DNA of 32,896 nucleotides from an uncultured bacterium (GTDB lineage Bacteria; Cyanobacteriota; Vampirovibrionia; Gastranaerophilales; Gastranaerophilaceae), in NCBI GenBank assembly GCA_902797985.1, contig CADBUZ010000027.1:1-32896 (forward strand), given 5' to 3'. The position numbers and the translations under genes were made by a program. The notes below the pieces were generated by a model. The model was not told the DNA's origin, ran no database searches, and saw only the letters and a list, made by a program, of their open reading frames with translations. Below, piece by piece: positions 15,637 to 32,710 of the stretch. Numbering within the stretch: the first letter of the stretch is position 1; the number at the start of each line of letters is the position of its first letter.

Positions 15637-16014
15637 ATGACACCTGAACAAGCAGCATTATTAGCAGACGAACTGGAAACAGCAATTTCTGTTGAAGATA
15701 TAGAAGAAGTATTACCACTAACACAAGGTGATGGCTCTGTTTATAGAAAAGATGAAACAGGTGCTGTTAACCACGAAAAAGTCGTAACAGGAGCTGAAAC
15801 TGCTCGTGTCAACTTTAAAATGACAATGCCGAAACTACAAAGTCCAGATTTTAAATCATTTATGGAGGCGGCTAAACACTTAAAAGATACAGGCGTTGTT
15901 AAATTTGTCAAAACATATTCAGATGACGATATAGAAAAAGTTAAAACCGGAGGTATAATAGGTGCAATGGCGAACGAGATAATCAAACGCCAGCACGGTA
16001 AAAATGCTAACTAA
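15637..16014 (+). CDS. Small orphan protein
   Basis: 125 residues with SD TGGAG before the ATG. Acidic N-terminus (about 1-45), then a lysine-rich part with repeated V-K-F-V-K and E-K-V-K. No membrane segment, no family recognised. The upstream 116 bases are very AT-rich. A terminator (16013-16040) follows immediately, and its A-run overlaps the stop codon region. Function unknown. Confidence 0.6.
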   Translation: MTPEQAALLADELETAISVEDIEEVLPLTQGDGSVYRKDETGAVNHEKVVTGAETARVNFKMTMPKLQSPDFKSFMEAAKHLKDTGVVKFVKTYSDDDIEKVKTGGIIGAMANEIIKRQHGKNAN

Positions 16015-16040
16015 AAAAGAGCCTTTCGGCTCTTTTTTTT
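16013..16040. terminator. Terminator, copy 1
   Basis: GAGCC/GGCTC stem extended by an A-run and a T-run (16013-16023 with 16028-16038), loop TTTC. It closes the 15637 gene. It is nearly identical to the tRNA-Leu terminator at 16226-16253 and starts the 49-base direct repeat described below. Confidence 0.85.
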
Positions 16041-16049
16041 ATAATTGGG

Positions 16050-16222
16050 CGTGAAGAGACTGTCTTGGATTTGCTCCACGCTCTCAGAATTTTGTTTTCG
16101 GTACTTCGCACCTGTCAACAAAATCTGTTCGCTATCCGGACTAACTTCGTTTCGTCCGTCCGCAAATCCGCTCGAACTACTGACAAGGCTCCGCCTTGTG
16201 GAGTTCTCGTCTCTTTTTGCGC
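16050..16222. repeat. Palindromic structured element next to tRNA-Leu
   Basis: About 170 bases, clearly richer in GC than the neighbours. Nested inverted repeats: AAGAGAC (near 16055) with GTCTCTT (near 16212), GGATTTGC (16068-16075) with GCAAATCC (16162-16169), TTTTGTT with AACAAAA (about 16090-16127), CGGAC with GTCCG (about 16137-16160), GAACT with AGTTC, and ACAAGGC/GCCTTGT (16183-16189 with 16193-16199). Together they allow a multi-branched fold. Short frames translated from here are not believable genes. It could be a MITE/REP-like element or a structured RNA. Confidence 0.55.
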
Positions 16223-16225
16223 AAT

Positions 16226-16253
16226 AAAAAAAGAGCCATTCGGCTCTTTTTTT
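16226..16253 (-). terminator. Terminator of tRNA-Leu, copy 2
   Basis: GAGCC/GGCTC hairpin with loop ATTC. Read on the minus strand, the T-run falls just after the tRNA-Leu 3' end. Confidence 0.8.
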
Positions 16254-16259
16254 AATAAT

Positions 16260-16338
16260 TGGGCGTGAAGAGACTCGAACTCCCACGCTTTCGCACTAGT
16301 TCCTAAGACTAGCGTGTCTACCATTCCACCACACGCCC
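16260..16338 (-). tRNA. tRNA-Leu (anticodon UAG)
   Basis: 79 bases without CCA. The 7-bp acceptor stem GGGCGTG/CACGCCC, D-arm starting TGGTGGAATGGTAGACAC, anticodon stem CTAGT/ACTAG with loop CTTAGGA (anticodon TAG, reading CUA), a short variable arm TGCGAAAGCGT and T-arm GGGAG-TTCGAGT-CTCTT. Discriminator A. CCA is not encoded. Confidence 0.95.
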
Positions 16339-16340
16339 AC

Positions 16341-16687
16341 ATTATTTAATTTTCAATGTCTTGAGCTTGGATAAACGTTTAATTTATCCCGTGTCTACCC
16401 CTCTCTCAAAACGATACTTAATCGTTTTGTTCGGCAGAGTACCACACGCCCTCGTTATTTAATTTTCAATGTCTTGAGCTTGAATAAACGTTTAATTTAC
16501 CCCGTGTCTACCCCTCTCTCAAAACGATACTTAATCGTTTTGTTCGGCAGAGTACCACACACCCACGTTATTTAATTTTCAAGCTTGGATAAACGTTTAA
16601 TTTACCCCGTGTCTACCCCTCTCTCAAAACGATACTTAATCGTTTTGTTCGGCAGAGTACCACACGCCCTCGTTATTCAGTTTTCAA
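16341..16687. repeat. Tandem 113-base repeats derived from the tRNA-Leu 5' half
   Basis: Three copies (16341-16453, 16454-16566, 16567-16671; the third lacks 8 bases) and a short fourth remnant (16672-16687). Read on the minus strand, each holds a promoter-like AT-rich stretch (TTGAAAATTAAATAA), the first bases of tRNA-Leu (GGGCGTGTGGT), a hairpin (AAAACGAT/ATCGTTTT, e.g. 16408-16428) where the D-loop should be, then GGTAGACACG again. None can fold as a full tRNA. They sit upstream of the real gene. The units are nearly identical, which suggests recent expansion or active homogenisation. Confidence 0.8.
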
Positions 16688-31801: not shown

Positions 31802-32710
31802 TTAGGCTTTATTTTTCCCTTGCATAAAATTATCTAATAATCTAAACCACATTAGTCTTGTCGTTTTTGAAACTGTTTTAGGAGTATTTATAGCTTCTTT
31901 TGTTTTTGCTAAATCAATATTCTTTTTTACAAAAGAGTATGGTTTAAACTTACTTTCATAAAGATACTGCATTGTTATTTTTTTTAAATTATAAACATTA
32001 TTAGAATCCGGTATAAGATTATAGATATCTTCTGTAGATATATTGGAATTTTCTCCGAACAATTTATCAGATTTAAATAAGTTGTTTGCACTCTTCAAAG
32101 ATTGTCCACTAAAACAAAAATCCATTAAGATGTAACGTTTCCCTGATTTATTAATTTTTTCTTTAGTTAACCCGACTGATTCTAAATAGTGTTTGAACCC
32201 ATCAAGATCCTTGTCGATTAACTTGTCTACGGAATTTTTCGCACTAAATCTTGAAGCATTTGAAAGAGGAATATTTATAACATTTTCTTCTCCAATTTTA
32301 TATCCTAAAACTTTACACAAAGAAGACAATGATCTCCCAATTGGAAGTACGACATATTTACCTTCACCATATTTTTTATCAAAAGAAGCTTTCATAAAAT
32401 CTGTCACTACATCATGAATAGTTTCCATATTTTTATAGAACTTCTTATTAAAAAACATAGTTGAACACTTATATTCAAACCTCAAAAGCTTCTTATCAAA
32501 GGAATTTAGTTTTTTATAATCAGCAATAGAATAACTTTTTAATTTATTGTTAGGAAGTGTAAAAGTTTTTGATAAATTATTAAAATGCTTTCCGCAAAAA
32601 AACTCTGACTTAGCAATAGAGGAGTTAAGTCCTGTCTTTTTTAAGGAACTCATATTATGAAAATTTTTCATACCAAAATATATCTGCATATGCATACAAT
32701 AATCAAACAA
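31802..32710 (-). CDS. Orphan protein, phosphoribosyltransferase-like
   Basis: 302 residues from a TTG at 32710; ATGs at codons 6, 8 and 14 are alternative starts, and no SD is visible for any. Residues 119-127 (Y-V-V-L-P-I-G-R-S) and 194-205 (I-L-M-D-F-C-F-S-G-Q-S-L) resemble the pyrophosphate loop and the PRPP loop (hydrophobic, acidic, then T/S-G-x-S/T) of type I phosphoribosyltransferases, although the second acidic residue is replaced by F. The rest matches nothing I know. Possibly a distant PRTase-fold protein; function unknown. Confidence 0.5.
   Translation of the reverse strand: MFDYCMHMQIYFGMKNFHNMSSLKKTGLNSSIAKSEFFCGKHFNNLSKTFTLPNNKLKSYSIADYKKLNSFDKKLLRFEYKCSTMFFNKKFYKNMETIHDVVTDFMKASFDKKYGEGKYVVLPIGRSLSSLCKVLGYKIGEENVINIPLSNASRFSAKNSVDKLIDKDLDGFKHYLESVGLTKEKINKSGKRYILMDFCFSGQSLKSANNLFKSDKLFGENSNISTEDIYNLIPDSNNVYNLKKITMQYLYESKFKPYSFVKKNIDLAKTKEAINTPKTVSKTTRLMWFRLLDNFMQGKNKA

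Follow-up and report, generated by a model that had tools for sequence, protein, structure and literature searches.

Bacterial genomes commonly contain small non-coding palindromic repeats, and how most of them move is unexplained. Integrative elements use the ends of tRNA and tmRNA genes as attachment sites; partial tRNA copies flank the insertion, and the host tRNA is kept intact. Small palindromic mobile DNA is already known as a kind. REP and REPIN sequences, described together with RAYT transposases, are short extragenic palindromes present in many copies, which form hairpins, are nonautonomous and are sometimes clustered (PMC3116915, PMC3733652). Rickettsia palindromic elements (RPEs), which measure 105-146 bp, have been reported within functional genes, including the RNA genes tmRNA and M1 RNA (PMC2229807). 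The available portions of the reports on mitochondrial GC clusters and double-hairpin elements describe gene-free mobile hairpins of about 40 nt that merge and nest and that have flanking repeats of 2-3 nt (PMC4478555, PMC2800124).

The window analyzed here, a stretch of 32,896 nucleotides from an uncultured member of the Gastranaerophilaceae, gut-dwelling relatives of the cyanobacteria, contains an array of partial tRNA-Leu copies, each carrying a 41-nt hairpin to which we refer as H. The array is genuine and illustrates well a phenomenon that extends beyond this locus. H is probably a selfish element, a non-coding hairpin with tRNA genes as its targets, and the array would have arisen by tandem amplification within a transcribed leader. 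As far as open-access searches reach, it has not been described before that one 41-nt hairpin occupies the tRNA genes of a whole family in a position-specific and tRNA-preserving manner. No description was found there of this repeat in Gastranaerophilales or Melainabacteria, of pseudo-tRNA repeats or of palindromes in tRNA genes, which is weak evidence since the papers searched form an open-access subset.

The array at tRNA-Leu(UAG)

Both ARAGORN and Rfam identify one intact tRNA-Leu(UAG) in the window (16259-16339, minus strand), which is the sole copy in the genome. A repeat search revealed three units of 113, 113 and 105 nt upstream of it on the same strand, with copies of the 113-nt repeat at 16328, 16441 and 16546 and showing ungapped identities of 100, 96 and 80%. 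The proximal and middle units are 96% identical, and the distal unit lacks 8 nt, which accounts for its spacing of 105. The initial annotation had described a series of tandem tRNA-Leu 5' copies ahead of the functional gene, the D-arm of each carrying a hairpin, and this description is borne out by the repeat search and the tRNA predictions. Its count of three near-identical units also stands, whereas the uniform length of 113 bases does not apply to the distal unit. The repeat search additionally found a fourth copy of the leader and acceptor part, ending at 16687.

Read along the minus strand, each unit comprises the leader, GGGCGTGTGGT (nucleotides 1-11 of tRNA-Leu), the 41-nt hairpin, GGTAGACACG (the 3' strand of the D-stem), a small hairpin and the leader again. 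The copies of nucleotides 1-11 that precede H are located at 16441-16451, 16554-16564 (with one substitution) and 16659-16669 in the proximal, middle and distal units, and the corresponding copies of H at 16400-16440, 16513-16553 and 16618-16658. These are exactly the three copies of H in the window, where none is expected by chance; they are mutually identical and all on the minus strand. The small hairpin, GGGGTAAA-TTAAACG-TTTATCC, occurs once per unit on the 3' side of the D-stem strand (16586-16608, minus strand, in the distal unit). The leader of the intact gene, TTGAAAATTAAATAATG (16340-16359, minus strand), is repeated before the pseudo-copies at about 16453-16472, 16566-16582 and 16671-16687, the part recurring in every unit being TTGAAAATTAAATAA. 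This shared leader may resemble the boxA antitermination element of rRNA operons.

The overall order on the minus strand is a promoter-like site, the leader, the three units, tRNA-Leu(UAG), a terminator, a second palindrome designated element A, and a second tRNA 3' end with its terminator. Element A, CGGATTTGCGG...GAGCAAATCCAAGAC, occupies 16062-16170 on the minus strand in the T-loop of the duplicated tRNA 3' end. The duplicated tRNA-Leu 3' end and terminator that follow it (16013-16061, minus strand) are 96% identical to the original at 16227-16275; the initial annotation had not mentioned this duplication. Elsewhere in the window, a minus-strand ORF with a TTG start (302 aa, 31802-32710) lies directly before tRNA-Ser.

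The initial annotation had also assigned a copied promoter to each unit. This is not supported, as the best promoter-like site, TTTACA-17-TAGAAT (16743-16715, minus strand; 10 of 12 positions), is located upstream of the entire array and is likely the promoter of both array and tRNA, and what the units repeat is the leader. Many other arrays show such a site in the corresponding upstream position. The ortholog in genome G002 has TTGAAA-17-TAGAAT at the equivalent place. Promoter-like sites occur at 6.2 per kb upstream of arrays versus 1.7 per kb within them, and the units are therefore predicted to be transcribed, most likely as part of the pre-tRNA leader. A weak site matching at 9 of 12 positions, TTGAGA-17-TAAATT, recurs inside the units, from which internal transcription may start.

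With regard to relatives, tRNA-Leu(UAG) is present as a single copy in each genome where it was found, and counting units at the orthologous genes gave zero to three. There are three units in the source genome (G000), two in G020 and in G031, and one in G002, where the unit has a near-identical tail, and in G016. G004 also has one unit, the H of which is split by an A-type element. No unit is found in G014, G018 or G019, and in G014 a promoter-like sequence directly precedes the tRNA. Palindromes are located in or near a duplicated 3' end in G002, G016 and G009. The unit number differs even within the genus, and this comparison of orthologs indicates that the site is repeatedly occupied, with gain, loss and change in copy number. 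An assembly artefact is unlikely, as the units are not identical to one another and independent assemblies show H units before the orthologous tRNA with differing copy numbers. Two other assignments were dropped: an alternative, split or permuted tRNA gene, because the units have no 3' half, and an integron attC site, because inspection of the units by eye showed no attC core boxes.

Structure, conservation and distribution of H

H is 41 nt long and has the layout A-CTCTGCCGA-stem-loop-stem-GAGAGG. It starts with ACTCTGCCGA and ends with GAGAGG, and the following bases are variable; the search pattern by which copies were collected fixed CTCTGCCGA and GAGAG, which accounts for part of the conservation of these ends. 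Longer variants with different loops also exist. The hairpin of the window folds with -11.9 kcal/mol, and the fold is strong in one unit frame (z -3.7) and weak in the others (z -1.4 and -1.9). Among 35 distinct 41-mers, double changes were observed at eight of the ten stem pairs, and 96% of cells pair. Covariation reached 0.417 compared with 0.129 after shuffling, slid controls being far lower, and 72 cells were doubly changed versus 19.9 in shuffled alignments, a number attained in none of 500 shuffles; these figures, like the other statistics on H, ignore the phylogeny among genomes. In a search with the Rfam 15 covariance models, no match to H was obtained up to E = 5, and only tRNA exceeded the threshold. 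A UGCC bulge with GA opposite and GA next to the stem (columns 5-10 and 36-37 of the alignment of H) could form kink-turn-like sheared G-A pairs.

A pattern search of the source genome gave 19 rows, of which three were counted twice, resulting in 16 copies of H; the reversed pattern gave none. These copies are located before tRNA-Leu(UAG), Leu(UAA), Lys, Met, Pro and Val, at the 3' end of tmRNA and, in a few cases, at a distance from any RNA gene. The check for the same hairpin at other tRNAs, suggested by the initial annotation, was thus positive: H is present before Met, Lys, Pro, Val, Ile and others. Its view of the units as tRNA-derived repeats is correct insofar as they contain 5' parts of tRNA-Leu, but the wider unit is the hairpin, which is dispersed beyond this gene. 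Related copies were found with the pattern in 26 of 58 relatives. A covariance model applied to a sample of 386 genomes of the phylum detected H in 165 of the 170 Gastranaerophilaceae; outside the family, only a single genome, from a sister family, gave a match.

Contigs with H that carry names belong almost all to Candidatus Gastranaerophilales, Melainabacteria or gut bacteria, and three are labelled otherwise. Two of these labels (Clostridiaceae and Clostridia) are probably wrong, judging from the H arrays that both contigs bear before tRNA-Leu(UAG). Among 2.9 million viral contigs, no match to the strict pattern was found, and a loose pattern returned mainly matches with long spacers, which we took as chance.

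The strong covariation of the stem, the predicted co-transcription with the tRNA and the stable fold of one unit could also be explained if the units were functional leader RNAs kept by selection, acting for example in protein binding or in the timing of tRNA processing. We consider this quite unlikely. The units are absent from the orthologous tRNA-Leu(UAG) of G014, G018 and G019 and vary in number within the genus. H also occurs in other settings, namely in antisense orientation at 3' ends, next to genes for ribosomal proteins and within other repeats, and structure conservation alone would fit a mobile hairpin too.

Insertion sites, duplications and nesting

The position of H relative to tRNA genes was examined for 147 copies, leaving aside the deeply sampled expansions in G012, G078 and G258. 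A tRNA or tmRNA gene is located within 400 nt of 106 of them; 75 lie in sense orientation in the 5' leader, 19 in antisense on the 3' side and 12 in sense on the 3' side, and none is antisense on the 5' side. The left flank of H and the intact gene agree as far as a single point, which falls after nucleotide 11-12 in 53 of the 69 cases on the 5' side and at nucleotide 8 (Met), 18-20 or 26 in the others. On the 3' side, the break is mostly 11-14 nt from the end of the tRNA, in antisense. The target motif is N|GNA, with G at +1 in 46 and A at +3 in all of the 47 distinct targets, although the motif may in part reflect the position of insertion, since tRNA sequences are themselves conserved. By inspection, 5-6 nt of the target beyond the insertion point are usually absent after H. 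The partial copy broken by H is accompanied by a retained intact tRNA, and the duplicated stretch is 11-47 nt in single-unit cases and longer in tandem arrays. A MITE of a DDE transposon was rejected on the grounds that this stretch is not a fixed short target-site duplication.

These variable duplication lengths, together with tails that are at times inverted copies of the target (L053, L058), would also be expected if the arrays had been built by slippage during replication or by template switching at tRNA palindromes, with no mobile element involved and the hairpin as a by-product. The complementarity of the flanks around H is modestly raised (p 3e-4) and does not extend to the far flanks, which is consistent with such a process. 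However, slippage cannot produce one conserved 41-nt sequence across differing tRNAs and more than 100 genomes, and as the origin of H it is therefore very improbable; it may well explain the amplification of the units.

Two further arrangements were observed at tRNA genes. At tRNA-Pro(UGG) of the source genome (L028), two downstream copies carry H in the D-loop and each retains the tRNA 3' end; another palindrome replaces the variable arm and the start of the T-arm, and a copy of the terminator follows the first. In some units (L047, L214, L220), the D-arm position of H is taken by members of another hairpin family, AAGGACTCCG-stem-loop-GGAGG.

Element A shows a parallel behavior: its copies lie in the T-loop of tRNA 3' ends that have been duplicated (Leu, Val, Ile, Tyr and Glu), and there are copies at other places as well; one beside Ala is cut by a contig end. 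It ends in ATCCAAGA, and the duplicated tRNA 3' ends retain their terminators (16013-16275 in the window; L002, L003, L006, L008 and L023). A filled and an empty site of element A occur inside a repeat of G012 (CATCAAG|TAGTCGG). Nesting of one hairpin in another recurs, and composites containing H have multiplied in three genomes. H lies within a repeat of the type GTCATCCTGAGC...GAATGACA in G258, within CCCTCCCC...GGGGTGGGG in G078, and within a longer modular repeat in G012, which starts with GTCTGAGGCGG, ends with GTTGACAATATGAAAT and holds one identical H at no fewer than 9 places (L265-L275). Other copies of H lie beside ribosomal protein genes.

No exact pair of filled and empty sites was obtained for H outside tRNA genes, and we therefore infer its discrete insertion from the duplications and the dispersal. 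H would then be a non-coding hairpin of about 41 nt, specific to Gastranaerophilaceae-type bacteria, which spreads within genomes with a preference for structured, hairpin-rich sequence before GNA, above all tRNA and tmRNA genes. It would enter tRNAs at nucleotide 11-12 from the 5' end or, in antisense, about 11-14 nt from the 3' end. The tRNA insertions observed would be those that went along with a local duplication of the end of the tRNA and its adjoining leader or trailer, leaving an intact copy next to the one broken by H. In the window, H would have entered the 5' part of tRNA-Leu(UAG), with the resulting unit then amplified tandemly to three; at the 3' end, palindrome A would have acted in a corresponding way. 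The array, placed in the leader between promoter and tRNA, is probably selfish or neutral. The sequences directly show the distribution of H, the conservation of its structure, its target site, the duplications, the variation in copy number and an orthologous site that is empty; mobility, neutrality and this order of insertion and duplication are what we infer from them.

Candidate enzymes and comparison with known systems

Y1 genes are present in 55 of the 170 family genomes, and the Y1 protein examined is a RAYT (NF047646). H could accordingly be a REP/REPIN-type element mobilized in trans by RAYT or another Y1 transposase of the IS200/IS605 type, since it is small, structured and non-coding, recurs in arrays, and is a high-copy short extragenic palindrome as REPs are. 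Genomes with Y1 are also richer in H (mean of 9.9 versus 6.8 copies, p 2e-4, uncorrected). Nevertheless, 36 of the 115 Y1-free genomes hold at least 10 copies, and H lacks an unpaired GTAG or CGTC tag at its 5' side. At the 17 Y1/RAYT loci examined, the flanks contain mostly other repeats, largely GTAG-tagged REPs of different sequence, and H does not flank the RAYT gene as its cognate REP; the sole H near a RAYT (L471) is about 170 nt away, beside a tRNA. Mobilization by this route is thus unlikely. Several distinct GTAG REPs (e.g. GTAGGGTGCGATGTTTCGCACC) were seen at L257, L259, L263, L470, L475 and L476, and they apparently differ from RAYT to RAYT.

Other enzymes were considered as well. 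The source genome has no RVT_1 match, and a retroelement driven by reverse transcriptase was rejected because the gene is not present wherever H is. IS110 is rare. As the presence of Y1/RAYT, reverse transcriptase and IS110 does not closely track H, none of them is an obvious partner, and no recognizable transposase was found among the ORFs between paired copies of H in G258. The variable duplication length and the 5-6 nt of target missing beside H are at odds with a simple transposase. A more specific proposal, which we put forward only tentatively, is that H is the visible part of an undescribed system of structure-guided transposition, in which an enzyme outside the RAYT, reverse transcriptase and IS110 families would recognize the folded 41-nt hairpin, insert it at N|GNA in tRNA and tmRNA genes and leave a tRNA-preserving duplication; other palindromes such as A, with CGAG| as its target, would be related elements that follow target rules of their own.

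H marks nearly every genome of the family, targets tRNA genes at one position and leaves a readable record consisting of a broken copy, an intact copy and tandem units. The many natural filled and empty sites are material for studying the insertion reaction and for an enzyme hunt by gene co-occurrence. For annotation, partial tRNA copies in these genomes should be regarded as insertion scars rather than as split or novel tRNAs.

Like REP and REPIN sequences, H is short, palindromic, gene-free, present in many copies and sometimes clustered, but it carries no GTAG or CGTC tag and favors one tRNA position, and nearly all RAYTs examined are flanked by other repeats. With tRNA-targeting integrative elements, H shares the use of tRNA and tmRNA ends, the partial copies and the intact host tRNA; it has neither integrase nor cargo, and its 5'-side preference, its length of 41 nt and its tandem units do not fit such elements. 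GC clusters and double-hairpin elements are similar to H in being gene-free, about 40 nt long and nested with other hairpins, and the available parts of those reports, as here, identify no mobilizing enzyme. They are organellar, however, and the same parts describe no fixed tRNA position with a tRNA-preserving duplication. Compared by size, host and description, H resembles RPEs as a palindrome of one bacterial lineage that enters genes, RNA genes included, and differs in its host, in being 41 nt long and in residing in duplicated partial copies next to an intact tRNA.
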